Of a stretch of DNA of 64,000 nt, positions 9,121 through 52,827 are shown in pieces. Under the pieces are notes generated by a model. It was not told the origin of the DNA and searched no databases. It worked only from the letters and a program-made list of their open reading frames with translations. Each line of letters opens with the position of its first letter. The first letter of the stretch is position 1. Origin of the DNA: Pyropia yezoensis (taxonomy: Eukaryota > Rhodophyta > Bangiophyceae > Bangiales > Bangiaceae). Location of the stretch: positions 27,628,894 to 27,692,893 of the forward strand of contig CM020618.1 of the NCBI GenBank assembly GCA_009829735.1, written 5' to 3'. The position numbers and the translations under genes are program-made.

Positions 9121-9127
9121 TTACCTT

Positions 9128-29522: not shown

Positions 29523-29770
29523 TGTAGCACAATAGGGAACCGTCGTAAGTCCACTCTCAGGGAACACTCACCAGGGGGGATCGGCAACAACGTCACCGGG
29601 GGGCCAAGGATGCTGTCCTTGGAGCGCAAGCCACGGCACCAAGATGGAAGCCCAAATGGGAGGGGCTTGTTGTTCTACCATGGCCGGCGGTGGATTAGCC
29701 GCCGGCCCCCTCGTTATAAACCCTCGGAGACACCACTAACTACCCTCCACCCCAAGATGCAAGTCCCTAT
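29523..29770 (-). repeat. GypC 3' LTR (R-U5 part recognisable)
   Basis: On the minus strand it aligns throughout with 40,830-41,074 (the GypC 5' LTR), from ACTT.CATCT.GGGG to the terminal TTGTGCTACA, with many substitutions but constant order. The U3 portion, expected up to about 29,885, does not align convincingly with the 5' copy. The element seems old, or U3 has been rearranged. Confidence 0.75.
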
Positions 29771-31038: not shown

Positions 31039-31270
31039 GTACTTCCCGGGGGTATCCCCATTTTGACGTTGACGGCGCCCTTCCCGCCCATGGCTGGGCT
31101 GAAGTCGGCGTCGAGCTGGCGTCGCAACCATGGTGTCATTTCGGGCGCGTTTCGCACAGACAGAACGTGTGCGTTGCAGACCGGTAACGGTCGCGCGCCG
31201 GTGTACACTCTTGTGCGCCTGTCCTTGTGGCAGGAGGGGCGGGAACCCCGAGTTGGTGTTGGTTGGGTTG

Positions 31271-31423
31271 TTACAGGAGGCGGCATCGCCTCATGTAAGG
31301 CATGAGGAGCTGGCGGGGTATATTCGCCGCCTGTTCCTTTGTGGGTAGGTCGTATCCGACCCACATTACTTTGACGTACCAGGGTTCTGGTAGGTCCGCG
31401 TCGGAATGTCCGACGATGCTCTC
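31271..31423 (-). pseudogene. GypC pol C-terminal piece: chromodomain
   Basis: Continues the GypC pol frame that is cut at 44,836. With one copy of the 5-bp duplication removed, HLVES joins to IVGHSDADLPEPWYVKVMW, followed by VGYDLPTKEQA and a TAA stop. The pattern (aromatic-Val-Lys-Val-x-Trp-x-Gly-Tyr) is that of a chromodomain, as at the C-terminus of integrases in chromoviruses, where it directs insertion to marked chromatin. The frame is open and in phase across the join. Confidence 0.75.
31419..31423. other. CTCTC target duplication next to the 5' LTR of GypA
   Basis: Its partner is not at the other end of GypA (ACGGT there) but beside the 3' LTR of GypB, at 44,832-44,836 (GAGAG, the reverse complement). 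Confidence 0.75.
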
Positions 31424-31892
31424 TGTGGCAGTATTGACCCCCAGGTAGGGGGGCAACACGTGCCATGCAAGGGGCGGCAGGCCACTAGCCTGACCCGTTC
31501 CTCCCCCTGCATTTGGGTCCGTATTCCCTAACTTTGGGATAGTTAGCTTAGTAGTAAATCCAACTTGGATTTGAGGGTGTTCTGCATTTATCGTCTTGAA
31601 TTTTCGTGTGGCCCGGTGGGCAGGTGCTGGGGTGGGAGATTCTGAGTGGCGAGATTCTGAGGGGACCCTGGGGGGATAAGGGGAGGGACAGCGGGGCTTG
31701 GCCCTGCGTCCCCGTCCCGACCAAGAAACTGTTGGTCCACACACCATCCTCTTGTTTGTCAGTGGGGGGTTTGCCCCACAACAGGGACAGAGTGTGTGCG
31801 ACTTGCACTTCTTCCGGTTCCCCCGACACGAGAGGCAGCCCTTGTACACCGCCCCAACTTGGGTGTCGTGTGTGCAAGTGGTTTTTGCCACA
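31424..31892 (+). repeat. GypA 5' LTR (469 bp)
   Basis: Starts TGTGGCAGTATTGACC and ends TGCCACA, so its ends are 7-bp inverted repeats. Near its end it reads GTGTCGTGTGTGCAAGT, a variant shared with the GypB 3' LTR. Its U3 side shares other variants with the GypB 5' LTR. Confidence 0.93.
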
Positions 31893-31894
31893 TT

Positions 31895-31912
31895 TGGTGG
31901 AGCAGCAGGGGA
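31895..31912 (+). promoter_or_regulatory. primer-binding site of GypA
   Basis: TGGTGGAGCAGCAGGGGA, two bases after the LTR. It begins TGG, complementary to the CCA end of a tRNA. The same site occurs in GypB (52,241-52,258, minus, last base changed), GypC (41,076) and GypD (59,443). The tRNA species is not identified. Confidence 0.85.
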
Positions 31913-32011
31913 CAGAGGTAAACTTTACCTCCGGGTGCACCCGGGTGTAGGGGGCCCTCTGTCTCAGAGGAACGGTGGACTTGGACCGTGTCATACGGAT
32001 CGTCAGCCAAC

Positions 32012-33958
32012 ATGGCTAGTTCTGACCCCCCGTCGTCCGGGGAGTACACGGGTGACGCACGTACTTCAGTGCCTTTGAATACTGGTGAGACACAGGTAGG
32101 TTTACCTGGGGTCGCAGAGGGACTGGAGGTCCCTCAAGCCAGCAGGACTGGAAGTGCGGGCGGGCAACAGGCCACCCCGACTCAGTCGGGAGTTCACTCG
32201 GGTGACATTTCTGATGTGGGTGGGCCAAAGTCTGGCCACCGTGTGGTACACTCAACGGGAACGTCCCAAGGGGTGAGGACTGTCCCCGCGGGTTCCACTC
32301 GGGTTGGAGCCAACTTTGGCTTGGAGCCGTCGCCAACTAGGCTTTCGGAGGACGGCGGACCTCCGTTGGTCGGCGATGGGCTCGCGCCCATGCCCCCGGT
32401 TGAGACCCCTGAGGATCGTGCTTACCCCTCAGGTGGACTCCCGGAGGCGGACCGAGACTCAACTGGAGTCGTCAATCCACTCCTCGCGGAAGCTGTCCGT
32501 CGGGAGGCGACCAATGTGTTGCGGCAGACTTTGCCGGACCTGGTGGTCACGATGACGAATCCTATTCTGAATCAGATTGTGGCGAGTTTGCCAGATGGCC
32601 TTAATGTCCAGACCGGATTGGGGCTTTCGAGCCCGCGGGCACAGGGGGAATCCCTCCTCACGCTTATCTCGGGTCGCCCCGAACAGGGGGCGACACCTGT
32701 GACTCCCAAAGAGGGAGCCACACCATACTCGGTGGGGCATACGCCCTTTATGGGGGAGTTCCCCCCGGCAACGCCGGCGGCTACACCAAGCGCGCCGCGC
32801 CGGACTACAGGCACTGAGGGTGAACTTACCCCAGTGCCCCAGCGGCTGTTCCGTCAACGTGAGGTGCCGCCCAAGGTCCAGGTAGCCAACCCGGTCTACC
32901 AGAGGATCTTTGATTGTGAGACCTACGCCCTCCACAACAAGTCGGTGGCGTATGGTCCTGACCAGGCCCGAGCCATGCGCCGTGCCAAGAAGAATGCACT
33001 TCACTCTTTTGGGCACAAAGCGGAGTGGGATGGAACTCCCCCCCTCCGTGTCTTTGAGTTTCTACGTCGTTTCACAAAAGCCTGTGACGACAATGCCATA
33101 AGTGAAGGCATGGCTTTCTATATGCTACAGGAGTTTACGAAGGGTGACCTCCGGACAGAACTTATGTCCGTCATGCCCAGCTCCTCAAGTGGAGGCGCTG
33201 GGGAGGTGACGTCCTATTTGGACCTCGTCAACTGGTTGTTGAGAGCCATGGTGGATGAAGCAGCGTTGGCTTCTCAAGTTGAGGAGTTTACTCAAGCCAA
33301 CCAGGAAGAGACTGAGGACGAGTTGTCTTTTGCGGAGCGAGTTCGTAAGCTCAACAATCTTTGTAGGTTTCTTCATCCACAAGCTGTGGTGAAGAGTCGG
33401 TTTGTGGAGGGACTCCATTGGTCAGTCCGGATGGAGACCCGGGAGCATAACACTGCCCGGGCGACCCTGGCCGAGTTGGCTAGGTTCGCCTACCGCAGAG
33501 GTGAGGCCTACCGCAAGTTGCGGGAGGAACAACGCCAGGAGCGTCAGGCCGAGTTGTCCGAGGAACGCGAGGAGGCGCGCCAGGCCAGAGAGTTGAGAGA
33601 GGCACGCCGAATCCGCAAGGAGCGGGTAGTAGCTGCCGTGGGAGCTTCCCAGGGTACTTCTCCGTCTTCCCCAGTCGGGAAGACCCCTCCGGGAACTGAC
33701 AATCGGTGTTGGAACTGCAACTCCGATGGACACTGGGCATATGATTGCCCCAAGTTGAGTAAACGCATTCAGCAACTTGTTAGGAATGCGAGTAAGAAGT
33801 CGGCTACGAACGAAGTACGTTCACGCCGCGAGGGTAGACCTCGACCGGTAGTGGCGGTCGCCACACCCTCGGCGGAGGGGGCGGACACGTCGTCCTCGGA
33901 CTCGTCGTCTTCCCCTTCGCCCTCGGATTCAGACGCCAAGTCGGCGGGAAACGAATGA
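32012..33958 (+). CDS. GypA gag
   Basis: 648 aa, intact. The N-terminal 280 residues are Pro/Gly/Thr-rich and probably disordered. The middle (about 300-480) resembles a retrotransposon capsid (FEFLRRFTKACDDNAISEG, YLDLVNWLLRAMVDEAALA). A charged coiled segment (EEQRQERQAELSEEREEA) precedes one zinc knuckle CWNCNSDGHWAYDC (about 567-580), and the tail is Ser/Asp-rich. The start is the ATG at 32,012; the frame is open further upstream but lacks ATG. It forms the particle and packages RNA. The last codons contain the slippery site GGGAAAC. Confidence 0.92.
   Translation: MASSDPPSSGEYTGDARTSVPLNTGETQVGLPGVAEGLEVPQASRTGSAGGQQATPTQSGVHSGDISDVGGPKSGHRVVHSTGTSQGVRTVPAGSTRVGANFGLEPSPTRLSEDGGPPLVGDGLAPMPPVETPEDRAYPSGGLPEADRDSTGVVNPLLAEAVRREATNVLRQTLPDLVVTMTNPILNQIVASLPDGLNVQTGLGLSSPRAQGESLLTLISGRPEQGATPVTPKEGATPYSVGHTPFMGEFPPATPAATPSAPRRTTGTEGELTPVPQRLFRQREVPPKVQVANPVYQRIFDCETYALHNKSVAYGPDQARAMRRAKKNALHSFGHKAEWDGTPPLRVFEFLRRFTKACDDNAISEGMAFYMLQEFTKGDLRTELMSVMPSSSSGGAGEVTSYLDLVNWLLRAMVDEAALASQVEEFTQANQEETEDELSFAERVRKLNNLCRFLHPQAVVKSRFVEGLHWSVRMETREHNTARATLAELARFAYRRGEAYRKLREEQRQERQAELSEEREEARQARELREARRIRKERVVAAVGASQGTSPSSPVGKTPPGTDNRCWNCNSDGHWAYDCPKLSKRIQQLVRNASKKSATNEVRSRREGRPRPVVAVATPSAEGADTSSSDSSSSPSPSDSDAKSAGNE
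33946..33952 (+). promoter_or_regulatory. -1 frameshift slippery site GGGAAAC at the end of GypA gag
   Basis: In gag phase it reads G GGA AAC, the canonical X XXY YYZ arrangement, one codon before the gag TGA (33,956). A -1 slip enters the pol frame, but that frame has TGA at 33,964, four codons later. GypB has the identical arrangement. Confidence 0.7.
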
Positions 33959-33966
33959 CCCTTTGA

Positions 33967-36900
33967 GCTGGTCGTCCGAAGCTCACAACGGCAGCCTCGG
34001 CCAAGTGGGCCCAGAGGACGAATCAACCGTGCCGGATACTGCGGCGACCTAAGGGAGTCCGCCCACCGCGGGTAAGACTCCCCAAGAACGTAAACCCACG
34101 TCGGGTCATCGCGGTGCTGACGGGTGAGAACTTCCAGGTGGTTGGACGGGTGCAAGTTGCCCCCGGCCGTGCCTGCTGTGCCCGTATCGTACTTGATACC
34201 GGGTCAGGAGCCTCTTTGATACGCAAGTCGCTATTACCAAAGGAGATAAAGCTCCAACGCTGGAGGCCCAAAGCTGACCATCTGATCGACATCAATGGTG
34301 GGGTACTTCCCATCGTTGGTGCCGTGACCCTACCAACTAGGTTGGGGACCCATGAGGTCGACGTGACCTATGATGTAGTTGAGAATATATCGGTACCCCT
34401 GCTTCTGGGTACCCCTTATGTTGTTACACAAGTGCCTTTGATTTGTGGCCCTGAGTACTGGGTCAAGTTGATGAATGGTGAGACCATCCCCATCCTTGGT
34501 AAGGGAAAGTCTGTGGCTCCTGTGACAGTCTCACAGTCGAAGCCTGTTTGCTCTGTGAGGGAAGGGTTTACTGCTACCCTGCGTTTAGCCCGTAAAGTCA
34601 CGTCGCCCCCCAACTCGGTGGTGCACGTTGACGTTGTAACTGATTATACGGGGAACGGGCTGGTGCACCCTTACCCCCGTCTTGCTCGCAAGCACCAAGT
34701 GCATATTGCCCTTGGCACGATGGAATCCAAAGTCGGAGACCCGTGGAGGATCCAGGTGATGAACCTGAGCTCGTCGCCCCAGTACTTCAAGTCGGGAGCC
34801 AAGTTCGACTATATCGACCAACACGAGGGACCGGTAGTAGCGGTCACCCTCAACGCGGGCGCAAGTAGCGATCCGAAGTCCGGAATGGAGAAGCATCAAG
34901 CCAGGTCGGCCGCCTCTCCTCGGCCCCATGTGAACATGGAGGGTGTTCCCCCCAGGTTGAGGGTTCAAATTGAACGCCTCTTGGACCAATATCACAAGTT
35001 GTGGGATGGTCAATTGGGACTCACGAGAGCTACCCAACACCGGATCGAGTTGAAGCCCGGTGCACCCCCTATACGCCAACAACCGTATAGGGGAGGACCC
35101 CGTTCAAGGGCCCTCGTTAAGGAGCAAGTTGCTCGCATGGAGGCCCTCGATGTGATTGAGGCCAGCAACGCCGAGTGGGCGAGTCCGGTGGTTATCGTCC
35201 CCAAAGTTGATGGGACCCCACGGTTCTGTATCGACTACCGTCAGCTCAACGAGAGCACGGTGAAGGACAGTTATCCCCTACCTAGGATGGACGACTGTCT
35301 GGACTCTCTGGGGGAGGCGAATGTGTTCTCTACCCTGGACGGTAACGCGGGGTACTGGCAAATTCCCATTGCCCCGGAAGACAGGCATAAAACTACCTTT
35401 ACCTGTCACTGTGGTACCTACCAGTGCAAGCGTCTACCGTTTGGCCTGTGTAACGCGCCGGCAACCTTCCAGCGCGCTATGGACATGATTCTGGCCGGAG
35501 TACGGTGGCAGATCTGTCTCGTGTACCTAGACGATATCATTGTGCTCTCCCGAAGTCCGGAGGAACACATTGGCCATCTTGGCCAGGTGTTCAAGCTACT
35601 TGATGACGCCGGTGTGTCACTGAAAGCGAGTAAGTGCCACCTCTTCACTCAAGAGGTGGAATACTTGGGACATGTTGTCCGTCCGGGGCGCCTAAATGTC
35701 AATGAGAAGAACTTGAGGGCCATCCGTAAGGCTAAGTACCCCCGGACTCAGACCCAGATGAGGAGCTTCCTCCGGATGTGTAACGTGTACCGACGTTTCA
35801 CCAAGGGCTTGGCCAAGGTGGCGAAGCCGTTGAATGGGCTGATTAGCTCAACGCTACCGAAGCACCTGCCTCCCCCAAGTCGGGTGGAGCAGGATTCCTT
35901 TGAGACTCTTCGGGACCTTCTGCTGAAGCCCCCCATCTTGGATATTCCCAGGTTGGGAGGCCACTACATCCTGGATGTGGACGCTAGCTACGACCAACTT
36001 GGTTGTGTGCTGCTTCAGCAGCAGCCGGACAAGGAGTACTTGCCGGTAGGATACTTCAGCAAGGGGCTGAACTCGGCCGAGAAGAACTACCGAGTCACCG
36101 AGTTGGAAGGACTCGCAGTGGTGTGGGCGGTGACGTCACTTCGTCACTACCTGGAGGGTGAGAAGTTCCTCATCCGCTGTGACCACCGCGCGTTGTAGTT
36201 CATCTTTAAGACGGACTGTACGAACACTCGTCTCAATCGGTGGAGGGTGCGACTGGCACCCTTCAACTTTGATATTGGGTACCGACCTGGCAGGCAACAT
36301 GCCCTTGCCGACGGCCTCTCTCGGGTACCTACCGAGGAGCTGGACACTAACCCAGTCGATGAGGACATCCCCATCGTGGGGGTCGTCACGCGCTCGGGTC
36401 AGGCGTTGAACCCCGAGGCGCCAGGGAACAAGAAGTACTTGCCCCTGTCCCTGGACGAGGTGGTGAAGGCCCAGGCCGAGGATCCCTTCTGCAAGTCGCA
36501 GAGGGATACACTGGATTTAGTGGCGCAGACGCGGTTCTTCCTGGGAGACGATGGCCTTCTCATGAGGAGGGGGGTATTCCAGGGGACCGAACAACTTGTC
36601 GTCCCCGCGTCCCTCAAGGGCAGTATCCTTGAGAGGGAGCACAACGCTCCCACGGGTGGACACCTGGGGTCTAGTAAACCGTACCAGACCCTGAAGACCA
36701 GGTACTACTGGCCGTCCATGGTGGTGGACAATTTCAGTTGGGTGACTGCCTGCGCAAGTTGTGCGCAGAACCGTCTGATGGAACGGCGGCCTAGTACGGC
36801 TATGCTATTGTTCCCGGCCAAGGAGCCCTTCGCCGCGTTGGCGATGGACATCCTTGGGCCACTGCCAGTGACCGAGGAGGGCAACCAGTACCTGCTGGCC

Positions 36901-37938
36901 ATCTGCGATCGCTTCACAAAACTTACGCGAGCGATCCCACTGGCAGAGATCACGGCCAGGTCGGTCGTGTCAGCCTTTCTAGATCACTGGGTTGCCGCGT
37001 ATGGCATCCCGGACAGTACACTATCGGACAATGGACCGCAATTTGCGTCCGTGCTGTTTCAGGGAGTGCTGGATATGTTGGGGGTTAAGGCAAACTATGC
37101 CACCCCCTACCACCCATAAACTAATGGGCAGGTGGAGCGCTTCAACAAAACTATTGTTCGGCAGCTGCGCCACTATGTGAGCGAGCACGTGAAAACGTGC
37201 GACCGATACATTTCTATTCTTACGACTGCCTGCAATTCGCAGGTTCACTCATCCACCGGGGAAGTACCCCTCGCTTTTGTGACCCCCCGTCGCGTGCGGT
37301 CTATTGCTGTGCGGCGGTCGCTCCCAACTAGGGAGGATGGTGGCAGTACGCCTACTCCTACTGAGAGTAAGGCGGAGTTCGCTGCTAGGCTTGAACACCT
37401 CATCCCTAAAGTCAGGGCTGAGATGGACAAAGCACAAAAGCGCTACAAGCGTACCTTTGAAAAAAAGGTGCGCAATGCTAAGCATGTACCCTAGCAGGGT
37501 GACTGGGTACTGGTTCACTCACACACCCCAACTGGGGGTAAGATGGTATTCCGGACGAAGGGGCCGTACCAGGTCCTTCGTACTGATGGGCGGCGCTTCA
37601 CCATCGAAAGTGACGATGGGGTCCGCACAGTGAACGGACAGGACGTGGTCAAAGTTGCACCACCGCCTGCAGGCGACCCAGCTTGGGCGCGGGCGCTGGA
37701 AGCGTGGCGCCTGCCCTCGCTGCCTGCGGCCAAACAGGGCCCGCAGGAGTACGTGTTCGATAAGTTCATCGACCACGGCTGGGATGAGGACACTAACCGC
37801 CTCATGTTGAGGGTGCGTTGGTTTGGCTACAAAGTCAAATTTGATACGTGGGAATATGTGGAGGACCTTCCCGCTGAGAAGGTCCGGGCATACTGTGCCC
37901 GGCATGAGATAGACCCTAGCAGCCCTCCCCCAACGTGA
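33967..37938 (+). pseudogene. GypA pol: protease, RT, RNase H, integrase, chromodomain
   Basis: One continuous frame (-1 relative to gag), interrupted by stops at TAG 36,196 (Gln in GypB), TAA 37,117 (in YHP*TNGQVERFN, shared with GypB) and TAG 37,492 (Glu in GypB). Protease active site LDTGSGASL near 34,193. RT has FCIDYRQLNES, LPFGLCNAPATFQRAMD and YLDD (near 35,524). RNase H has DVDASYDQLGCVLL, ELEGLAVVWAV and RCDHRAL. Integrase has the zinc finger (REHNAPTGGHLG ... CASC), AMDILGPLP, SDNGPQF and GQVERFN, all DDE residues present. The C-terminal chromodomain is at about 37,745-37,915 (EYVFDKFIDHGWDED ... LRVRWFGYKVKFDTWEYVED), so this is a chromovirus-like Ty3/gypsy element. The domain order is complete, so this copy is recently broken. 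Confidence 0.92.
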
Positions 37939-38049
37939 GGGAAGGCCGAGTAACAGTGCCAAGAGAGTGCTTCAAATCGGAGTGGTACGCAGAGTGACTT
38001 TTAACTACAGCCCTAACCCTCACACTCTCACAACAAAGGCAGCTGCCAA

Positions 38050-39993
38050 CTAGGCATGCATGCGTGACTCTCCAGCCCCACGACCCTCGCCCTCACGTGG
38101 AGGCGAGCGGCGAGACCCACGGCGATAACGCTCCCCACCCGTCGGAGGGGGCGGCGGCTCCAAGTCGGACCCGTCGCGCCCCTCACGATCGCGCAAGTGG
38201 CGACGACCGCGGCTACCCTTCTGCTTGGTCTTGCGCGCAAGTTGGCGACGCAGACGCCGGACCGACTCCGACTCTGACGGAGTCGAGGACTCCGAGACGG
38301 AGTAAGACAACTCGTCTTCCGATACGGAGGGAGAGCGCCGCGAGAGTCGGCGTCGACGGCGAGGAGGCGAGTATGCCCGGCTCGCACGACGTTGGCCACG
38401 CCCAAGTGGGGCTGTCTGGGGCACAATAGCCCCGATGCGAGCCAACTCGGCCGTCATAAACTCCGCCACCGACTCGCAACTCGCGGTCGCCACTGCAGTA
38501 CGAACGCGCTCCTCAAGTTGAGGAGTCTCGGAAGTTTGAAGGGTTGCGGTCGACGCGGCCAACCAGGAAATGGTGCGCACCAACGTGGTGATCATCATCT
38601 CTGAGGTTAGAGGCATGGGCGGTAACACCAACTTGGGGTATACCGTCAGAACATTGGCCCCCAAGTTGGGGGACACCGGGGTGGACGACTCAACGGCCAC
38701 GCTAATCGGAATGTCCCCGTGCGGCTGGTAGGGGAAAGGAGGAAGCGGAGGGGCACGCCGAGGTGGCGGGACCCGGGTGTAACTGCGACCCCGACTTGGG
38801 GCCCCCGCAGTAGGTTGAGTCATATGGTCATCATATGAGGGCACGGCCATAACTATGGGCTTGTCCGGGGGTGGCGCAGTGTGGCGATCCACTCCCGGGG
38901 CATACGGGTAGTCCCCCATGCCCAACCCCTCGCGAAGGACCACATGGCCGTCGTCAAGTTCACGAGCGACCCACACAAACTGGCTAAGTGCGCCATCGTC
39001 CTTGGGCCCACGAGTGGGGCGGCGCAACTTGTGCTCAATGCTCTCCCACTCGGTAAACTTGTGAACGCGGAGCATCTCCTCAAGTAGGGTGAGTTGTCCT
39101 GATGAGCACCCCTCAGCAACAAGCTGAGAGGTGAGCTGTTCCAGACCTTGGATAAGCCGGAGGGGGAGGTGCCAGAGCATCCCCCGCGGCTGAACACAAG
39201 ACACCCAGGTCGACATGACCTCGAGGAGCCACTGGGTGGCCAACATGGCCCACACCAGGTGATCTGGGCTGGCCGTCAACATGACGGAGCCGAAGTGGTC
39301 GAGCAACCGAGGTAGCAACGCCGGGCACCCGTAGGGGACCTCAACTTGAGGCCACCACTCGGGCTTCTTCGGGTAGTACTGCTCCTTACTGGCAGCGGAC
39401 TGCTCCGGAAACTCAAGTTGAGCCGAGGTCACCAAGTAGGGACCTCGCCGGAAGTCCTTCTCCATCCGCACATCAAAGTGATGAGTGTGCGGATCGGCCT
39501 CGTGAAGGTACGGGGGCCGAGTTGCCACCGCGTCTCACGCAGAGGTCGGCAAGTCGCCGGGACCCGGGATAGTTCCCCCGCGGTCCACCATGGCCTTGGC
39601 ACGCTGTACATCTTCGACCTGCTCGTCGTCCAGGAAGGCAAACTGGTCCGTCCTGACGCCAGCAGGGAACCCCAACCTACGGGGATACTTCTCCCGTAGG
39701 CGGTCCCATACCCGACCCATCGCTGCGCCAAGTCGGCCACAGCGAAGAACAGTCAACCCCTCCTCATATAGAGGCCAAGCGGGGTAAAACCACAGCCCCA
39801 AGGCCTCACGTGGGACGACGCGGCCCGCCTCCGGGGGAGATCCCGCCGTCAACCCAAAGCCGGGTGACGCGGGAGCCCCATCCCCCGGAGCGATCGCGGA
39901 GCCCCCGCCGGAAGTCCCGGCGGGCGCTACACCGTAGGAGGTGTCCTACATACGTTCGTCAAGAGAGTCTGTCTCCACTCCCGGAGTAGCCAT
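38050..39993 (-). pseudogene. antisense ORF of GypA between pol and 3' LTR
   Basis: Frame of 648 codons on the strand opposite to gag-pol, starting ATG (39,993) and read as MATPGVETDSLDERM. It has in-frame TAG at 39,948-39,946 and TGA at 39,537-39,535, both also present in GypB. The longest open part (from about 39,528) encodes a Trp/Leu-rich domain (YYPKKPEWWPQVEVPYG, LVWAMLATQWLLEVMSTW), a Pro-rich linker and a very basic Arg/Ser tail (RRRRRLSRRSPSVSEDE). No known family recognised. Additional antisense ORFs in this position are known for some plant Ty3/gypsy lineages. Its length, conserved codon content and position argue against chance; its function is unknown. Confidence 0.6.
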
Positions 39994-40316
39994 GGCTCTC
40001 CCCAAGTTGGGAAGAGACGCCCTGGCTAGAGCGGTCCGAGAACCGCCTCGAGTTGAGGGGGACTCGGATGATGGGTAGACGGGTGGCCTCCCCAGCGTGG
40101 GGCGGCCCCGTGGACGGTGAAGGGGAGGTGGTGGTGATGGTGAAGTGTGAACCGAGAAGAGCAAGCTGCCGAGTGGGCAAGCTTGAGGAGAGGGGCGGTC
40201 AACGTGACCGCCTCCACATCCACGTTACGTACTCGAGGGGTGACAGCAAGTCGCGCCCCCAACGCCGAGACGTGCGTTTACGCACCCCCTCACAGGGCCG
40301 ACCGGGTCGGTCGGAA

Positions 40317-40331
40317 GTGAGGAGAGGGGAG
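40317..40331 (+). promoter_or_regulatory. polypurine tract of GypA
   Basis: GTGAGGAGAGGGGAG directly before the 3' LTR: the plus-strand primer for reverse transcription. The same tract flanks the GypB 3' LTR in inverse orientation (45,306-45,320). Confidence 0.8.
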
Positions 40332-40800
40332 TGTGGCAGTAGTGACCCCCAGGTAGGGGGGCAACACGTGCCATGCAAGGGGCGGCAGGCCACTAGCCTG
40401 ACCCGTTCCTCCCCCTGCATTTGGGTCCGTATTCCCTAAGTTTGGGATAGTTAGCTTAGTAGTAAATCGAACTTGGATTTGAGGGTTTTCTGCATTTATC
40501 GTCTTGAATTTTCGTGTGGCCCGGTGGGCAGGTGCTGGGGTGGGAGATTCTGAGTGGCGAGATTCTGAGGGGACCCTGGGGGGATAAGGGGAGGGACAGC
40601 GGGCCTTGGCCCTGCGTCCCCGTCCCGATCAAGAAACTGTTGGACCGCACACCATCTTTTTGTTTGTCCGGGGGGGGATTGCCCCACAACAGGGATAGAG
40701 TGTGTGCGACTTGCACTTCTTCCGGTTCCCCCGACACGGGAGGCAGCTCTTGTGCACCGCCCCAGCTTGAGTGTCGCGTGTGCAAGAGGGTTTTTCCAGA
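40332..40800 (+). repeat. GypA 3' LTR (469 bp)
   Basis: Begins TGTGGCAGTAGTGACC. Its last bases are TTTTTCCAGA rather than TTTTGCCACA (two substitutions). Near the end it reads GTCGCGTGTGCAAGAGGG, as in the GypB 5' LTR, whereas its U3 side (TAGTGACC, TTTTTGTTTGTCCGGGGG) matches the GypB 3' LTR. It is followed by ACGGT. Confidence 0.92.
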
Positions 40801-40805
40801 ACGGT
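40801..40805. other. ACGGT target duplication next to the 3' LTR of GypA
   Basis: Its partner is beside the 5' LTR of GypB (52,730-52,734, ACCGT on the plus strand), not at the other end of GypA. Confidence 0.75.
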
Positions 40806-41074
40806 AACTGGCAGTTACGTATGACCAGAGGGACTTACATCTCGGGGTATAGGGTAGTTAGTGGTGTATTCGAGGGTTTGTAACGAGGGGGCCGGCGGCG
40901 AATCCACCGACGGCTATGGTAGAACAACAAATATCTCCCGTTTAGGCTCCCACCGTGGTCCCGTGGTGCGCGCTCCAAGGACAGCGACCTTGGCCTCCCG
41001 GTGACGTTGTTGCCGATCCCCCCGGGGGAGTGGTCCCTGAGAGTGGACGTGCGACGGTTCTCTGTTGTGCTACA
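40806..41074 (+). repeat. GypC 5' LTR, inner part
   Basis: Aligns with the minus strand of 29,523-29,770 and ends TGTGCTACA one base before the primer-binding site TGGTAAAGCAGCAGGGGA (41,076-41,093). The first 93 bp of this LTR lie at 52,730-52,822 on the other strand, beyond the GypB insertion. Confidence 0.75.
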
Positions 41075-41299
41075 TTGGTAAAGCAGCAGGGGACGGGTTT
41101 CCGTCACCCTTGTGGTGACGCCGTCTTCGGCACTGGCACACGGATAGGGAGCCGGTCCTTTTCTTGTACTCGTGGTGTTGCGATCTGGTTGATTGTGTTG
41201 AGTGGCTACATTTGACTGCGATCTACTGTTACTCTTCTCAACCTACCCCCTCGCCCCCTTTTTTGTGGTGACCGTTTCGTCGGTTGACTGATTGTAACT

Positions 41300-42142
41300 A
41301 TGTCTACCCAAGAGACGGGGAACGCTCAAGATGACGGATTGGCGTCGACGCCGTCCCCGGGGGTGAACACGGGAACCGGGATCGGCAACCCGATTGACAA
41401 CATTGAGACGCCGATGCTCTCCGGTGCCGGATCGACGTTTGGTACGGCTCGGACGGCAGGTGGTGGCGGCCCGCCTCAACCGTCTTCGGCTGACCTCAAT
41501 CCGCCGCCACCTTCACCAAAATATTCCCTGATGGCATCATTGGCTCGCATCGAGGCCCGGTTCACCGGACTCGACGCACGTCAAGAGCGTACGGAGGAAA
41601 CAATGGCGGTGCTGATGTCAACACGCCACCCGACGGTACCCCGTCGTGTTCCCCCCACACCGTTGCGGTTTGAGCCGGCCGGACTACCTTTGGAGTCTAC
41701 CGGGGTCGTCCCCGGTGCAGCTACCCGCGGACAACCCCCGGACACGGCGGGGTATGGATCCGACTCGTCAGCCGAGTTGGAACGGAGCCACACAGAACGC
41801 TACGCTCGGAGTACCCGGAGCGAACTTCGCGGACAGAGCCCGGCGGATACTTACGCCGGAGCAGGGTCGGCTATGGGGGGGGGCGGTACCCTATCGCAGT
41901 ATCCCCACGACGGAAGAAGCCATGCGCGTCGGGAACCCGACGTGCCGACGCCGGAAGTACCAGCTTCACTGGTACAAGCTATGACAGCACAGTCCGCCCG
42001 TTACTTGTTACCTCACAGGCATCTGCAGAGTCCAGTCCGACCTCCAAACATACAAGCGCCATGGGTTGACCATGGCCAACGGTATCGTAGACATCCCAGC
42101 GGAGGGGTCGTCACTGCTCGTGATGGCGAACTATCGCCGTAA
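41300..42142 (+). pseudogene. GypC gag, N-terminal remnant
   Basis: ATG-started frame beginning MSTQETGNAQDDGLASTPSP: Gly/Thr/Pro-rich, with a short helix (SLMASLARIEARFTGLDARQ) like the N-terminal part of related gags. No capsid core or zinc knuckle is present. The end of the frame (after about 41,990) overlaps the pol remnant out of frame, so gag C-terminus and protease were removed by a deletion. Confidence 0.6.
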
Positions 42143-44836
42143 GGCAGTCACACTTCCGAAAGGGACTATCCTTGGGATCGCCGAGGTCTACGAAGGAGAC
42201 ATCCTTGCCCCTGACGTGGAAGGTCATGTGGAACCACTTGAAGTACTGGCGGTCGCCGAAACCACCGAACTGGAGGAACCCGACATCGGGAAGCCTAGTC
42301 GACCACCAGTTCCGGCGAACATTCCGCCGAAGGACCAAGAAGCCTTGAAGGCCCTGGCCGAGGCTGACCTCGACCACCTTTCCTCTTCGGTAGCCGAAGG
42401 GGTACGACGGATGCTAAGAAAGCATGAAGTCAAGTGGACCGGCGGGGCCCTGGGTACCATTGGGGCAACCCAACACCGTATGGACCTAGTACCAGGCGCA
42501 CGACCCGCCCGGTCGCAACCGCACCGAGCGGGACCTATGCAACGAGAGACCGTTGACGGAGACGTGAAGAGGACGAGCGAAGCTAAGGTGATTCGACCTT
42601 CGATGTCGGAGTGGGGCGCCCCAGTCGTCATCGTACCGAAGAAGGATCAAACCCCTTGGTTCTGCATCGATTATCGACGCCTCAAGTTGGTCACCAAGAA
42701 AGACTCATACCCTTTACAAAGGATGGATGAGTGTATCGACTCCCTGGGGGAAGCCACAGTGTTTACCACTATCGACTGCAATGCCGGGTACTGGCAGATC
42801 CCAGTGGCGGAGAAGGAAGTCCCGAAGACAGCGTTCGTCAGTCACAGTGGAGTGTACGAGTTCATAAGGATGCCCTTCGGATTGTCCAACGCCCCCGCCA
42901 CATTCCAGCGGGCCATCGACATTATACTGTCGGGAGTGAAGTAGCGTACCTGCCTAGGGTACCTGGACGATGTCATCGTCTTCTCGCGTAGCATGGATGA
43001 CCATGTGCAGCATGTCGTCGGGTTGCTCACCCTCTTGCGGAACGCCGGGGTAACCCTGCGTCTCAAGAAGTGCGCCTTCTTTCAACAGACCGTCGAGTAC
43101 CTGGGTCACCAGATCACACCAGGTAAACTGGGAGTACTCGAGGCTAATACCCGGGTACTCCGGGATGCGCAATACCCGACCACCCAGACACAGCTGACGA
43201 GCTTTCTAGGGACGCGTAGCGTATACCGACGGTTCGTCAAGGACTTCGCTCGTATAGCAAAACCGTTAACGGTTCTTACAAGCAGCACCTTGCCAAAGGT
43301 ACTCCAACCCCCCTCGCCGAGCGAGGGAGAGGCATTCGAATTGCTCAAGTAAGCCCTGCTAGCCCCACCCGTGCTTGCGTTGCCGCATAGACGCGGGACC
43401 TTTGTCATCGATGTCGATGCATGCGATACCCCAGTGGGGTGCACCCTGTTACAGGGAGAGACACTCATCGGTACCGATAATGTTATCGCGGACCTACGAA
43501 GATACCCGACAGGTGGACGAGGACATCCCGGTGGTACCGGTTTGCATGGTGGGTAACGCCACCCAAGGTATGGTTGACCATACCATGGCACACCGCGCGT
43601 GCCCACTGACTCTCGCGGACTTCCGCGAGGCACAGGCCAATGACGATGACTGTAGACGCCATCGCGCTAACCTCCTGGCCGGCACGGCCGGCATCTTTTC
43701 CGAGAACACGAGATCCCTGCAGCCGGACACCCGGGAGGCTCGCGCATGCTCGCAGGGATGCGAAGGTTCTTCTACTGGCCAGCAATGGCCGTCCACGTAA
43801 TCGACCAAGTGCGGGGATGCCACCCGTGTGCACGGAATCGTATGAGCGTTCATAAGCGGGCATCCGCCTTGAAGCTACTCCCTCCGGATGGGCCCAACGA
43901 GCAAGTCGCTATCAACATACTCTGGCCACTTCCGGTACCGGAAGAAGGGAACAGGTACATCCTGGTCATGTCTGACCGCTTCACCAAGCTGTCACGAGCG
44001 GCGGCCATTCTGGATGATACGGCATACACCGTCATGAACTCATCGGTTGACCACTGGATCAGTGCTTACGGAGTGAAGAACCAACTCCTCTCCGACAACG
44101 GAGCAAACCTGACTTCAGCATTCCGCACTAAGGTCATGGGCATGTTCGGGTTCGAACCACGTCGGGCGTCCGACTACCACCCGCAAACCAACGGGCAGGT
44201 GGAGCGGTTCAACCGCACCATCGTCAAGGTGCTCCAATGCTACGTGGCAGAGCACACGAACACGTGGGACAGGCTCCTGTCCGTATTGACCCTGGCATAC
44301 AATGCCAGGTCCCACCGGAGCACGAACATTGCACCACTGGAGTGGGTCATGCCAATGGGCGTCGGTTACCTGACGCTGCCACCGGGCAGATGCACTCGGT
44401 ATGACATACCGAAGGGTCGTCCGGCCGAGCGGATCCACCTAGCTTGGTTGGCCAAGCTATCGTGGATGACAACTAAGCTCAAGGGTGCCCTTGAGCGAAC
44501 TAAATCTTGATACAAGAAGAACTTCGACGCCCGACTACGGGTGCGCAACGCGAACCTGGTGACAGGTGACTGAATCTTTATCAGACACCAGAAGTTCCGA
44601 GGGAACAAGCATATGCAACCGGTCAAGGGACCGTATCAGACACTACACAGAAGTGATCACTCTGTCATCCTCCACTCCGATACGGAGATACAACACATCA
44701 ATCTGAATGATGCCACACCGGCTCCGAAGCCGAAACAGCCTCAGCCGGCACCGGCTGGGTTGCTACATGAAGCTCTTACAACCCACCGGTCAGATGACCT
44801 GGTGGGGCCGGATGGAATCCCACACCTGGTGGAGAG
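42066..44836 (+). pseudogene. GypC pol remnant: RT, integrase, start of chromodomain
   Basis: Broken polyprotein. RT has WGAPVVIVPKKDQTPWFCID, MPFGLSNAPATFQRAID and YLDDVIVFS; a TAG at 42,942 replaces a Trp. A stop at about 43,350 follows FELLK. RNase H is reduced to FVIDVDACDTPVGCTLLQ and then deleted. In integrase, from about 43,746, the first catalytic Asp is Asn (INILWPLP), while SDNGANLTS and HPQTNGQVERFN are kept. The frame is lost near 44,510 and reappears at 44,613 (QPVKGPYQTLHRSDHSVIL, the integrase C-terminal domain). It runs to HLVES at 44,836, where GypB's LTR begins; the chromodomain continues at 31,423 (-). Confidence 0.85.
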
Positions 44837-45305
44837 TGCGGCAAGAGCAACTTGCACACACGACACCCAAGCTGCGGCGGTGTACAAGAGCTGCCTCCCG
44901 TGTCGGGGGAACCGGAAGAAGTGCAAGTCGCACACACTCTGTCCCTGTTGTGGGGCAATCCCCCCCCGGACAAACAAAAAGATGGTGTGTGGTCCAACAG
45001 TTTCTTGGTCGGGACGGGGACGCAGGGCCAAGCCCCGCTGTCCCTCCCCTTATCCCCCCAGGGTCCCCTCAGAATCTCGCCACTCAGAATCTCCCACCCC
45101 AGCACCTGCCCACCGGGCCACACGAAAATTCAAGACGATAAATGCAGAAAACCCTCAAATCCAAGTTCGATTTACTACTAAGCTAACTATCCCAAACTTA
45201 GGGAATACGGACCCAAATGCAGGGGGAGGAACGGGTCAGGCTAGTGGCCTGCCGCCCCTTGCATGGCACGTGTTGCCCCCCTACCTGGGGGTCACTACTG
45301 CCACA
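44837..45305 (-). repeat. GypB 3' LTR (469 bp)
   Basis: Element ends TGCCGCA instead of TGCCACA. Outer flank GAGAG (44,832-44,836) = CTCTC on the element strand, pairing with GypA's 5' flank. Together with about 1 kb of internal sequence it forms an inverted repeat with the GypA 3' end around 40,801-44,836. Confidence 0.92.
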
Positions 45306-45643
45306 CTCCCCTCTCCTCACTTCCGACCGACCCGGTCGGCCCTGTGAGGGGGTGCGTAAACGCACGTCTCGGCGTTGGGGGCGCGACTTGCTGTCACCCC
45401 TCGAGTACGTAACGTGGATGTGGAGGCGGTCACGTTGACCGCCCCTCTCCTCAAGCTTGCCCACTCGGCAGCTTGCTCTTCTCGGTTCACACTTCACCAT
45501 CACCACCACCTCCCCTTCACCGTCCACGGGGCCGCCCCACGCTGGGGAGGCCACCCGTCTACCCATCATCCGAGTCCCCCTCAACTCGAGGCGGGTCTCG
45601 GGCCGCTGTAGCCAGGGCGTCTCTCCCCAACTTAGGGAGAGCC

Positions 45644-46390
45644 ATGGCGACCCCGGTGGTGGAGACCGACTCTCTTGATGAATGTATGTAGGACACCTCC
45701 TACGGTGTAGCGCCCGCCGGGACTTCCGGCGGGGGCTCCGCGATCGCTCCGGGGGATGGGGCTCCCGCGTCACCCGGCTTTGGGTTGACGGCGGGATCTC
45801 CCCCGGAGGCGGGCCGCGTCGTCCCACGTGAGGCCTTGGGGCTGTGGTTTTACCCCACTTGGCCTCTATATGAGGAGGGGTTGACTGTTCTTCGCTGTGG
45901 CCGACTTGGCGCAGCGATGGGTCGGGTATGGGACCGCCTACGGGAGAAGTATCCCCGTAGGTTGGGGTTCCCTGCTGGCGTCAGGACGGACCAGTTTGCC
46001 TTCCTGGACGACGAGCAGGTCGAAGATGTACAGCGTGCCAAGGCCATGGTGGACCGCGGGGGAACTATCCCGGGTCCCGGCGACTTGCCGACCTCTGCTT
46101 GAGACGTGGTGGCAACTCGCCCCCCGTACCTTCACGAGGCCGATCCGCACACTCATCACTTTGATGTGCGGATGGAGAGGGACTTCCGGCGAGGTCCCTA
46201 CTTGGTGACCTCGGCTCAACTTGAGTTTCCGGAGCAGTCCGCTGCCAGTAAGGAGCAGTACTACCCGAAGAAGCCCGAGTGGTGGCCTCAAGTTGAGGTC
46301 CCCTACGGGTGCCCGGCGTTGCTACCGCACAGTATGCCGGGACCTTCTCAGCGGGAAGGTCCTCCACATATTCCCACGTATCAAATTTGA
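45644..46390 (+). pseudogene. antisense ORF of GypB, truncated
   Basis: Counterpart of the GypA antisense ORF: MATPVVETDSLDECM, then TAG (45,689), the second open part to TGA (46,100), and a third part to about 46,320. There a deletion joins it to sequence antisense to the chromodomain. Both stops are at the same codons as in GypA. Confidence 0.6.
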
Positions 46391-49300
46391 CTTTGTAGCC
46401 AAACCAACGCACCCTCAACATGAGGCGGTTAGTGTCCTCATCCCAGCCGTGGTCGATGAACTTATCGAACACGTACTCCTGCGGGCCCTGTTTGGCCGCA
46501 GGCAGCGAGGGCAGGCGCCACGCTTCCAGCGCCCGCGCCCAAGCTGGGTCGCCTGCAGGCGGTGGTGCAACTTTGACAACGTCTTGTCCGTTCACTGTGC
46601 GGACCCCATCGTCACTTTCGATGGTGAAGCGCCGCCCATCAGTACGAAGGACCTGGTACGGCCCCTTCGTCTGGAATACCAACTTACCCCCAGTTGGGGT
46701 GTGTGAGTGAGCCAGTACCCAGTCTCCCTGCTCGAAGACGTGCCCAGCATTGCTTATCTTTTTGTCAAAGGTACGCTTGTAGCGCTTTTGTGCTTTGTCC
46801 ATCTCAGCCCTGACTTTAGGGATGAGGTGTTCAAGCCTAGCAGCGAACTCCGCCTTACTCTCAGTAGGAGTAGGCGTACTGCCACCATCCTCCCTAGTTG
46901 GGAGCGGCCGCCGCACGGCGAGAGACCGCACGCGACGGGGGGTCACAAAAGCGAGGGGTACTTCCCCGGTGGATGAGTGAACCTGCGAATTGCAGGCAGT
47001 CGTAAGAATAGAAATGTATCGGTCGCACGTTTTCACGTGCTCGCTCACATAGTGGCGCAGCTGCCGAACAATAGTTTTGTTGAAGCGCTCCACCTGCCCA
47101 TTAGTTTATGGGTGGTAGGGGGTGGCATAGTTTGCCTTAACCCCCAACATATCCAGCACTCCCTGAAACAGCACGGACGCAAATTGCGGTCCATTGTCCG
47201 ATAGTGTACTGTCCGGGATGCCATACGCGGCAACACAGTGAAGGATCGCAGATGACCAGAGAGTACTGGTTGCCCTCCTCGGTCACTGGCAGTGGCCCAA
47301 GGATGTCCATCGCCAACGCGGCAGAGGGCTTCTTGGCTGGGAACAGTAACATAGCCGTAGTAGGCCGCCGTTCCATCAGACGGTTCTGCGCACAACTTGT
47401 GCAGGCAGTCACCCAACTGTAGATGTCCACCACAATGGACGGCCAGTAGTACCTGGTCTTCAGGGTCTGGTACAGTGTACTAGACCCCAGGTGTCCACCC
47501 GTGGGAGCGTTGTGCTCCCTCTCAAGGATACTGTCCTTGAGAGATGCGGGGACGACAAGTTGTTCTGTCCCCTGGAATACCCCCCTCCTCAAGAGGAGGC
47601 CATCGTTTCCGACAAAGAACCGCATCTCCGCCACTGTATCCAGCGTATCCCTCTGCGACTTGCAGAAGGGGGCCTCGGCCTGGGCCTTCACCACCTCATC
47701 CAGGGACAGGGGCAAGTACTTCTTGTTCTCTGGCGCCTCGGGGTCCAACGCCTGACCCGAGCACGTGACTACCCCCCCGATGGGGATGTCCTCATCGACT
47801 GGGTTAGTGTCCAGCTCCTCGGTAGGTACCCGAGAGAGGCCGTCGGCAAGGGCATGTTGCCTGCCAGGTCGGTACCCAATATCAAAGTTGAAGGGTGCCA
47901 GTCGCACCCTCCACCGGTTGAGACGAGTGCTCGTGCAATCCGTCTTGAAGATGAACTGCAACGCGCGGTGGTCACAGCGGATGAGGAACTTCTCACCCTC
48001 CAGGTAGTGACGAAGTGACGTCACCGCCCACACCACTGCGAGTCCTTCCAACTCGGTGACTCGGTAGTTCTTCTCGGCCGAGTTCAGCCCCTTGCTGAAG
48101 TATCCTACCGGCAAGTACTCCTTGTCCGGCTGCTGCTGAAGCAGCACACAACCAAGTTGGTCGTAGCTAGCGTCCACATCCAGGATGTAGTGGCCTCCCA
48201 ACCTGGGAATATCCAAGATGGGGGGCTTCAGCAGAAGGTCCCGAAGAGTCTCAAAGGAATCCTGCTCCACCCGACTTGGGGGAGGCAGGTGCTTCGGTAG
48301 CGTTGAGCTAATCAGCCCATTCAACGGCTTCGCCACCTTGGCCAAGCCCTTGGTGAAACGTCGGTACACGTTACACATCCCGAGGAAGCTCCTCATCTGG
48401 GTCTGAGTCCGGGGGTACTTAGCCTTACGGATGGCCCTCAAGTTCTTCTCATTGACATTTAGGCGCCCCGGACGGACAACATGTCCCAAGTATTCCACCT
48501 CTTGAGTGAAGAGGTAGCACTTACTTGCCTTCGGTGATACACCGGCGTCAGGAAGTAGCTTGAACACTTGGCCAAGATGGCCAATGTGTTCCTCCGGACT
48601 TCGGGAGAACACAATGATATCGTCTAGGTACACGAGACAGATCTGCCACCGTACTCCGGCCAGAATCATGTCCATAGCGCGCTGGAAAGTTGCCGGCGCG
48701 TTACACAGGCCAAACGGTAGTCGCTTGCACTGGTAGGTACCACAGTGACAGGTAAAGGTAGTTTTATGCCTGTCTTCCGGGGCAATGGGAATTTGCCAGT
48801 ACCCCGCGTTACAGTCAAGGGTAGAGAACACGTTTGCCTCCCCAAATGAGTCCAGACAGTCGTCCATCCTAGGTAGGGGATAACTGTCCTTCACCATGCT
48901 CTCGTTGAGTTTACGGTAGTCGATACAGAACCGTGGGGTCCCATCAACTTTGGGGAACATAACCACCGCGCTCGCCCACTCGGCGTTGCTGGCCTCAATC
49001 ACATCGAGGGCCTCCATGCGAGCAACTTGCTCCTTAACGAGGGCCCTTGAACGGGGTCCTCCCCTATACGGTTGTTGGCGTACAGGGGGTGCGCCGGGTT
49101 TCAACTCGATCCGGTGTTGGGTGGCTCTCATGAGTCCCAATTGACCATCCCACAACTTGTGATATTGGTCCAAGAGGCGTTCAACTTGAACCCTCAACCT
49201 GGGTGGAACACTCTCCATGTTCACATGGGGCCGAGGAGAGGCGGCCGACCTGGCTTGATGCTTCTCCATTCCGGACTTCGGGTCGCTACTCGCGCCCGCA

Positions 49301-50040
49301 TTGAGGGTGACCGCTACTACCGGTCCCTCATTTTGGTCGATATAGCCGAACCTGGCTCCCGACTTGAAGTACTTGGGCGACGAGCTCAGGTTCATCACCT
49401 GGATCCTCCACGGGACTCCGACTTTGGATTCCATCGTGCCAAGGGCAACATGCACTTGGTGCTTGCGAGAAAGACGGGGGTAAGGGTGCACCAGCCCGTT
49501 CCCCGTATAATCAGTTACAACGTCAACGTGCGCCACCGAGTTGGGGGGCAACGTGACTTTACGGGCTAAACGCAGGGTAGCAGTAAACCCTTCCCTCACA
49601 GAGCAAACAGGCTTCGACTGTGAGACTGCTACAGGAGCCACAGACTTTCCCTTACCAAGGATGGGGATGGTCTCCCCATTCATCAACTTGACCCAGTACT
49701 CAGGGCCATAAATCAAAGGCACTTGTGTAACAACATAAGGGGTACCCAGAAGCAGGGGTACCGATATATTCTCAAATACTCCATAAGTCACGTCGAACTC
49801 ATGGGTTCCCAACCTAGTTGGTAGGGTCACGGCACCAACGATTGGAAGTACCCCACCATTGATGTCGATCAGATGGTCAGCTTTACACTTCCAGCGTTGG
49901 AGCTTCATCTCCTTTGGTAATTGCGACTTGCGTATCAAAGAGGCTCCTGACCCGGTATCAAGTACGACACGGGCACAGCAGGCACGGCCGGGGGCAAGTT
50001 GCACCCGTCCAGCCACCTGGAAGTTCTCACCCGTCAGCAC
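46065..50040 (-). pseudogene. GypB pol
   Basis: Open from the protease (LDTGSGASL) through RT (YLDDIIVFS), RNase H (RCDHRALQFIF, where GypA has a stop) and the integrase zinc finger and AMDILGPLP, 967 aa down to 47,137. A deletion of about 70 bp at 47,240-47,250 shifts the frame and removes the second part of the integrase core start. The downstream part (47,093-46,065) carries ERFNKTIVRQLRHYV, the C-terminal domain and a chromodomain with FDKFIDHGWDEDTNR, then reads out of the element's normal end into deletion-joined sequence. The codon before TNGQVERF is TAA, as in GypA. Confidence 0.9.
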
Positions 50041-50195
50041 CGCGATGACCCGACGTGGGCTTACGTTCTTGGGGAGTCTTACCCGCGGTGGGCGGACTCC
50101 CTTACGTCGCCGCAGTATCCGGCAGGGTTGGATCGTCCTCTTGACCCACTTGGCCGAGGCTGCCGTTGTGAGCTTTGGACGGCCAGCTCAAAGGG

Positions 50196-52146
50196 TCATT
50201 CGTTTCCCGCCGACTTGGCGTCTGAATCCGAGGGCGAAGGGGAAGACGACGAGTCCGAGGACGACGTGTCCGCCCCCTCCGCCGAGGGTGTGGCGACCGC
50301 CACTACCGGTCGAGGTCTACCCTCGCGGCGTGAACGTACTTCGTTCGTAGCCGACTTCTTACTCGCATTCCTAACAAGTTGCTGAATGCGTTTACTCAAC
50401 TTGGGGCAATCATATGCCCAGTGTCCATCGGAGTTGCAGTTCCAACACCGATTGTCAGTTCCCGGAGGGGTCTTCCCGACTGGGGAAGACGGAGAAGTAC
50501 CCTGGGAAGCTCCCACGGCAGCTACTACCCGCTCCTTGCGGATTCGGCGTGCCTCTCTCAACTCTCTGGCCTGGCGCGCCTCCTCGCGTTCCTCGGACAA
50601 CTCGGCCTGACGCTCCTGGCGTTGTTCCTCCCGCAACTTGCGGTAGGCCTCACCTCTGCGGTAGGCGAACCTAGCCAACTCGGCCAGGGTCGCCCGGGCA
50701 GTGTTATGCTCCCGGGTCTCCATCCGGACTGACCAATGGAGTCCCTCCACAAACCGACTCTTCACCACAGCTTGTGGATGAAGAAACCTACAAAGATTGT
50801 TGAGCTTACGAACTCGCTCCGCAAAAGACAACTCGTCCTCAGTCTCTTCCTGGTTGGCTTGAGTAAACTCCTCAACTTGAGAAGCCAACGCTGCTTCATC
50901 CACCATGGCTCTCAACAACCAGTTGACGAGGTCCAAATAGGACGTCACCTCCCCAGCGCCTCCACTTGAGGAGCTGGGCATGACGGACATAAGTTCTGTC
51001 CGGAGGTCACCCTTCGTAAACTCCTGTAGCATATAGAAAGCCATGCCTTCACTTATGGCATTGTCGTCACAGGCTTTTGTGAAACGACGTAGAAACTCAA
51101 AGACACGGAGGGGGGGAGTTCCATCCCACTCCGCTTTGTGCCCAAAAGAGTGAAGTGCATTCTTCTTGGCACGGCGCATGGCTCGGGCCTGGTCAGGACC
51201 ATACGCCACCGACTTGTTGTGGAGGGCGTAGGTCTCACAATCAAAGATCCTCTGGTAGACCGGGTTGGCTACCTGGACCTTGGGCGGCACCTCACGTTGA
51301 CGGAACAGCCGCTGGGGCACTGGGGTAAGTTCACCCTCAGTGCCTGTAGTCCGGCGCGGCGCGCTTGGTGTAGCCGCCGGCGTTGCCGGGGGGAACTCCC
51401 CCATAAAGGGCGTATGCCCCACCGAGTATGGTGTGGCTCCCTCTTTGGGAGTCACAGGTGTCGCCCCCTGTTCGGGGCGACCCGAGATAAGCGTGAGGAG
51501 GGATTCCCCCTGTGCCCGCGGGCTCGAAAGCCCCAATCCGGTCTGGACATTAAGGCCATCTGGCAAACTCGCCACAATCTGATTCAGAATAGGATTCGTC
51601 ATCGTGACCACCAGGTCCGGCAAAGTCTGCCGCAACACATTGGTCGCCTCCCGACGGACAGCTTCCGCGAGGAGTGGATTGACGACTCCAGTTGAGTCTC
51701 GGTCCGCCTCCGGGAGTCCACCTGAGGGGTAAGCACGATCCTCAGGGGTCTCAACCGGGGGCATGGGCGCGAGCCCATCGCCGACCAACGGAGGTCCGCC
51801 GTCCTCCGAAAGCCTAGTTGGCGACGGCTCCAAGCCAAAGTTGGCTCCAACCCGAGTGAAACCCGCGGGGACAGTCCTCACCCCTTGGGACGTTCCCGTT
51901 GAGTGTACCACACGGTGGCCAGACTTTGGCCCACCCACATCAGAAGTGTCACCCGAGTGAACTCCCGACTGAGTCGGGGTGGCCTGTTGCCCGCCCGCAC
52001 TTCCAGTCCTGCTGGCTTGAGGGACCTCCAGTCCCTCTGCGACCCCAGGTAAACCTACCTGTGTCTCACCAGTATTCAAAGGCACTGAATGACGTGCATT
52101 ACCTGTGTACTTCCAGACGACGGGGGGTCCGAACAAGCCTTGTTGG
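50196..52146 (-). pseudogene. GypB gag, start codon lost
   Basis: Nearly identical to GypA gag over its whole length (capsid region, coiled segment, CWNCNSDGHWAYDC knuckle, GGGAAAC before the stop). The ATG used in GypA is AAG here (52,139-52,141), and the first residues differ (ACSDPPSSG replaced by a shifted reading). The frame stays open, so a downstream start would be needed. Confidence 0.85.
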
Positions 52147-52260
52147 CTGACGATCCGTATGACACGGTCCAAGTCCACCGTATCTCTGAGACAGAGGGCC
52201 CCCTACACCCGGGTGCACCCGGAGGTAACGTTTACCTGTGTCCCCTGCTGCTCCACCGAA

Positions 52261-52729
52261 TGTGGCAAAACCCTCTTGCACACGCGACACCCAAGTTGGC
52301 GCGGTGTACAAGCGCTGCCTCCCGTGTCGGGGGAACCGGAAGAAGTGCAAGTCGCACACGCGCTGTCTTTGTTGTGGGGCAATCCCCCCACGGACAAACA
52401 AGAAGATGGTGTGTGGTCCAACAGTTTCTTGGTCGGGACGGGGACGCAGGGCCAAGCCCCGCTGTCCCTCCCCTTATCCCCCCAGGGTCCCCTCAGAATC
52501 TCGCCACTCAGAATCTCCCACCCCAGCACCTGCCCACCGGGCCACACGACATTTCAAGACGATAAGTGCAGAAAACCCTCAAATCCAAGTTGAATTTCCT
52601 ACTAAGCTAACTATCCCAAACTTAGGGAATACGAACCCAAATGCAGGGGGAGGAACGGGTCAGGCTAGTGGCCTGCCGCCCCTTGCATGGCACGTGTTGC
52701 CCCCCTACCTGGGGGTCAATACTGCCACA
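52261..52729 (-). repeat. GypB 5' LTR (469 bp)
   Basis: Begins TGTGGCAGTATTGACC and ends TGCCACA (element strand); the PBS follows two to three bases later (complement at 52,241-52,258). Its outer flank on the element strand is ACGGT. Confidence 0.92.
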
Positions 52730-52822
52730 ACCGTGACCAATACGGACTCCCAAATTCAAAGTTGAGGGATAGAAGTAGGCCCCCTAGATTAGGGTCACAA
52801 TACGGTCATCCATATTGCTACA
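52730..52822 (-). repeat. GypC 5' LTR, outer part
   Basis: Element strand starts TGTAGCA at 52,822, matching as an inverted repeat the TGCTACA end at 41,074, and is followed outside by the duplication CCGGT (52,823-52,827) shared with 29,518-29,522. Joined to 40,806-41,074 it gives an LTR of about 362 bp. Confidence 0.65.
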
Positions 52823-52827
52823 CCGGT

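Follow-up and report, generated by a model that had tools for sequence, protein, structure and literature searches.

The closest described system is inversion 2z3 of Drosophila buzzatii, for which PMC2775673 reports exchanged target-site duplications and chimeric copies of Galileo. The locus described here, from the red seaweed Pyropia yezoensis, resembles Galileo 2z3 as described there in having copies in opposite orientation, exchanged duplications and a single target copy in the uninverted order; it may resemble it in chimerism too, which the data support for GypA and not for GypB. Unlike Galileo, which that account presents as a DNA transposon with 7-bp duplications and an inversion checked in non-inverted chromosomes, the P. 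yezoensis elements are LTR retrotransposons with 5-bp duplications, the inverted segment of 4 kb lies inside another element, and the uninverted order is known from paralogous copies only. Two other papers (PMC7251063, PMC2672092) deal with Ty3/gypsy elements and with gene conversion or recombination between LTR elements, judging by their titles and listed terms. A literature search for exchanged or swapped duplications returned Drosophila only, which is no proof that red-algal cases are unpublished, and Pyropia occurred in none of the papers among the matches listed for a looser search. The probable retrotransposon-mediated inversion in P. yezoensis is a clear fresh example of an already known genome change. 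Few loci document a rearrangement so fully: of its three nested duplications one has stayed intact and two are crossed, and there are relatives elsewhere in the P. yezoensis genome that preserve both original joins.

The window, that is, the whole stretch of 64,000 nucleotides that was analysed, corresponds to C1:27628894-27692893 of a 107.5-Mb genome (contigs C1, C2 and C3 of 43.6, 34.3 and 29.4 Mb, respectively). GypA, a Ty3/gypsy-type LTR retrotransposon of 9,377 bp, occupies 31424..40800 on the forward strand, with LTRs at 31424-31892 and 40332-40800. GypB, a 7,893-bp member of the same family, lies at 44837..52729 on the reverse strand, with its 3' LTR at 44837-45305 and its 5' LTR at 52261-52729, and the two elements form inverted arms that are 95-98% complementary. 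A domain search detected a zinc knuckle, reverse transcriptase (RT), RNase H and integrase in GypA (RVT_1 and RNase H in 34114-36198, integrase in 36247-37119), and a single frame of GypB (47137-50040) carries RT, RNase H and the zinc-binding domain of integrase; both elements have the Ty3/gypsy order of RT, RNase H and integrase. A match to Chromo, the domain looked for as the mark of a chromovirus, was seen in one GypB frame (E = 0.0013, 19.1 bits) and fell under the cut-off of 25.1. LTRs of the family have TG..CA ends and are accompanied by a short duplication of fixed length, the exception being the end of the GypA 3' LTR, which reads AGA and not ACA. GypA contains 1,412 bp (37899-39310, corresponding to point 46326 in GypB) and a further 71 bp that are absent from GypB. 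Since the LTR spacing of GypA (8.90-8.91 kb) was found in eight other same-strand pairs, the absence of the 1,412 bp looks like a deletion in GypB.

The first-pass annotation had described the short flanks of the two elements as crossed, and on re-reading, all four borders proved correct to the base. CTCTC precedes the 5' LTR of GypA (31419..31423, outer copy of duplication 1) and follows the 3' LTR of GypB, where it reads GAGAG on the forward strand (44832..44836, inner copy). ACGGT follows the 3' LTR of GypA (40801..40805, inner copy of duplication 2) and precedes the 5' LTR of GypB, where it reads ACCGT (52730..52734, outer copy). Neither element has matching flanks of its own, and the pairs match crosswise. 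The length of 469 bp given earlier for each of the four LTRs was confirmed, and their alignment contains no gap columns. By our own arithmetic, the chance of two 5-mers matching crosswise is about 4^-10, taken as a single test. Controls were the five pairs with both LTRs retrieved, from the eight same-strand pairs about 8.9 kb apart; in these ordinary full-length elements the two flanking 5-mers were identical in four of the five pairs and agreed at four of five letters in the fifth. As ordinary full-length copies have matching 5-mers, crossed flanks are not the normal look of this family. Identical 5-mers also bordered three of four LTRs classed as solo, L070 being the exception. Unmatched flanks arise in other ways too, as in the same-strand pair C3:20131053/20134289, 3.2 kb apart, which is flanked by TGGCC and CTTCA.

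Identical copies of CCGGT are present at 29518..29522, adjoining the LTR end TGTAGC, and at 52823..52827. GypA and GypB are therefore both nested inside one older Ty3/gypsy-type element, GypC, with CCGGT as its target-site duplication and its outer frame intact. The extent originally proposed, 31419..52734, was sound as to the borders of GypA and GypB and left out this host; the full feature runs from 29518 to 52827. By sequence comparison, the 3' part of GypC lies on the reverse strand at 29523..31423 and comprises interior sequence and a truncated 3' LTR (29523-29768). The first 93 bp of its 5' LTR, the portion outside GypB, are found at 52730..52822, also on the reverse strand. The rest of the 5' LTR (to about 41074) lies on the forward strand in the inner segment, 40801..44836 (4,036 bp), together with regions matching RT and integrase. 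The 246-bp LTR stretch 29523-29768 is 86.6% identical, in opposite orientation, to 41074-40829, and the LTR ends of GypC are TGTAGC and GCTACA. Judged from L010, the GypC 3' LTR lacks, at 29768, roughly the initial 116 bp of the full LTR.

The GypC family is large, with at least 40 matches, the window included. We fetched 12 GypC loci, which may represent only 10 copies (L013/L014 and L017/L018 are possible halves of one), and compared the left flank, the inner segment and the right flank with each locus separately, counting matches of at least 60 bp. In six of the 12 (L010, L011, L012, L015, L016 and L020), position 44836 is followed directly by the reverse complement of 31423, the two overlapping by exactly 5 bp. 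L017 is compatible with this join, L009 has a gap, L013 runs into a different LTR some 30 bp further along, and L014, L018 and L019 do not cover the junction; a further GypC copy, in L070, has the join too, with alignments that overlap by 6. The right flank continues into 40801, again with a 5-bp overlap, in five of the 12 loci (L010, L013, L016, L018 and L019), the remaining seven being without both sides visible. With the same threshold of 60 bp, the joins of the window itself were found in none of the 12 loci. The 5-bp overlaps are the two duplications, and paralogous GypC copies have a single target copy within contiguous, uninverted sequence. These joins and overlaps show that the inner 4,036 bp are inverted in the assembly, at both ends, compared with the order that existed when the two elements inserted. 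An inversion of this segment had been predicted from the crossed 5-mers, and it is now supported as well by both junctions in other GypC copies and by the intact CCGGT. The assembled locus consists of three nested insertions with the order of the inner segment inverted.

The two LTRs of one insertion are expected to be identical at the start. We compared the 5' and 3' LTRs of GypA (A5, A3) and of GypB (B5, B3) with 47 distinct copies from 74 loci, having omitted 11 repeats of the same place, the 4 focal loci and the 12 GypC loci. At seven sites A5 reads CATCATT, as in 9 of the 47 other copies, and A3 reads TCATGCA, as in 5 of the 47, all seven sites being different; this set was picked for variation in the family and among the four focal LTRs, and a set of 17, comprising all sites polymorphic in the 47 other copies, is fairer. 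On the latter, four of the five control elements showed 17/17 matches between their LTRs, and the fifth, with matching flanks, 11/17. A5 and A3 match at 9/17 sites, and 450 pairings of a 5' LTR with a 3' LTR, the true pairs among them, average 10.6, which supports GypA as a probable chimera with LTRs matching no better than unpaired ones. In contrast, B5 and B3 match at 14/17, which is as good as in the crossed pairs (13/17 and 15/17). At the last six polymorphic sites (from 443), the crossed pairs have 11 matches out of 12 and the present pairs 6 out of 12. Four-way site patterns favoured the present pairing at no site and the crossed pairing at two; a further five sites joined A5 with B5 and A3 with B3, a grouping that points to conversion between the facing LTRs. 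Six rare states, each found in at most 2 of the 47 other copies, are common to A3 and B3, which are also the closest pair among the four LTRs, with 15 differences; the crossed pairs differ at 18 and 25 sites. Mean differences to the 47 copies were 12.1 for A5, 19.1 for B3, 21.7 for A3 and 21.3 for B5; the nearness of A5 to the family would be surprising for an LTR as old as B3, and we offer no explanation for it. Dating by LTR divergence was rejected because the divergence is distorted by A3-B3 conversion and by the patches that B5 has in common with a neighbouring LTR. Facing pairs of this kind carry the warning that LTR divergence is no insertion clock.

Sequence has been exchanged between GypA and GypB. 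The two elements have 219 differences over 7,893 aligned sites (mean 2.8%), and a stretch of 1,676 bp (32296..33971 on the forward strand; 50183-51858 on the GypB side) is identical between them. When the differences were placed at random in 20,000 trials, the longest identical run was 568 bp. A second identical run, of 561 bp, extends into the 3' LTRs (40043..40603 on the forward strand; 45034-45594 on the GypB side) and falls just under the random maximum. Within 32174-33373, 13 states are common to GypA and GypB and absent from 25 other copies, with no sites private to GypA and one private to GypB; in 31424-32173, the corresponding numbers are 0 shared, 5 private to GypA and 19 private to GypB. 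Given the difference-free 1,676 bp and the shared private states, mutations that arose after insertion have been copied between the two elements, recently. We regard the longer run as a tract of recent exchange and a candidate site of crossover and the shorter as a putative second tract, and either could mark the crossover. Searches with 3-kb segments for the crossover position did not separate relatives of GypA from relatives of GypB. When a copy of the CATCATT type and another of the TCATGCA type were brought into the comparison over 35.33-36.90 kb, 28 sites grouped GypA with GypB, and 1 fitted an upstream crossover.

These observations suggest a history that begins with the insertion of GypC, which duplicated CCGGT. 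GypC was then entered by two younger elements, both from another family and oppositely oriented: one went into the interior (duplicating CTCTC), the other into the 5' LTR (duplicating ACGGT). Homologous, ectopic recombination between them would have flipped the intervening 4,036 bp, swapping the flanks and leaving both elements chimeric, and gene conversion has also moved sequence between GypA and GypB, at least once recently. We consider this whole history, of nested insertions, inversion by ectopic recombination and conversion, to be quite probable. As in an inversion of ectopic origin, homologous copies in opposite orientation stand at both breakpoints and the target-site duplications are exchanged. 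Recombination between two inverted insertions had been put forward in the first-pass annotation; the inverted order was borne out, and recombination as its cause is a reading drawn from the LTR haplotypes and the shared private mutations. We infer that a single reciprocal crossover between GypA and GypB made the inversion and that the living alga carries it. The locus indicates that, in a red seaweed, neighbouring retrotransposons in inverted orientation recombine through conversion and, probably, through crossing over as well.

The main rival to this history is an error of assembly: the true order would be uninverted, and the 4-kb segment, enclosed by inverted repeats of 8-9 kb with about 97% identity, would have been flipped by the assembler. 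The 1,676-bp identical tract offers a place for such a switch, the resulting order would be identical to that seen here, and a 4-kb flip is under the size normally corrected by BioNano and Hi-C scaffolding. Long reads, however, are able to span a 9.4-kb element plus its flanks, and the window is free of any N, although neither point is decisive; on balance, we judge an assembly flip unlikely. According to PMC7423979, PacBio contigs (N50 of 340.8 kb) formed the basis of the assembly, and BioNano and Hi-C data were applied afterwards; the paper names the deposited PacBio reads as SRR10489006-SRR10489010.

A biological route to the same flanks is crosswise integration, in which two cDNAs each join one end at each site, giving an inversion and swapped duplications without homologous recombination. 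It predicts that the LTRs within each element were identical at birth, whereas the GypA pair matches at 9/17 sites against the mean of 10.6 for unpaired combinations. Later conversion could have produced this mismatch in GypA, and the LTRs of GypB do match at 14/17; even so, we hold crosswise integration to be very improbable. That the elements are unrelated and their flanks coincidental, or their borders misread, found no support and is hardly credible, since both empty sites occur joined, with 5-bp overlaps, in other GypC copies and the outermost duplication, CCGGT, is preserved.

Among the 95 places in the genome with LTRs of this family, two further inverted pairs lie less than 15 kb apart. 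The pair C2:917213 / C2:921503 has the 3' flanks ATTCG and GAGAC; GAGAC follows the 3' LTR of the minus element and also precedes the 5' LTR of the plus element (C2:908303-921969; L023, L039, L077), as an inversion predicts, with a chance of about 1 in 1,024. The 5' LTR of the minus element is absent at its predicted place; 56 letters there match the forward strand of the GypA interior (35885-35940), and so a plus-oriented copy sits at that place. A pattern search for ATTCG before the LTR start returned 9 hits at up to one mismatch; all were inexact, and all lay away from the C2 locus. One of the two duplications, GAGAC, is crossed at this locus. The two 3' ends of the pair have 33 shared private states and 13 differences in 1,949 columns. 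When copies were ranked by shared private states, L033/L059 came first with 55 sites, yet they have 559 differences in 1,891 columns, and we take them for misaligned divergent sequence. It seems doubtful that facing pairs of the family act as recurrent inversion switches, flipping back and forth and polymorphic among strains or cells, also at C2:908303-921969. Another LTR pair in opposite orientation, 3.9 kb apart, is located at C2:33563721-33568094 (second LTR at 33567626).

Other repeats were noted in the window. A related LTR, D, 83-85% identical, lies on the forward strand at 53467..53936 and has short patches in common with the 5' LTR of GypB (52261-52729), which is in the opposite orientation. 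The patches cover LTR sites 178 and 180, and sites 361, 362, 368 and 370, and probably reflect local gene conversion. The flanks of D, GGGCG and AGGCG, match at four of five letters, and D may therefore be a solo LTR. Inverted repeats at 9125-9578 and 56612-57046, 47 kb apart, are diverged (about 77-83% identity) and probably belong to another repeat family.
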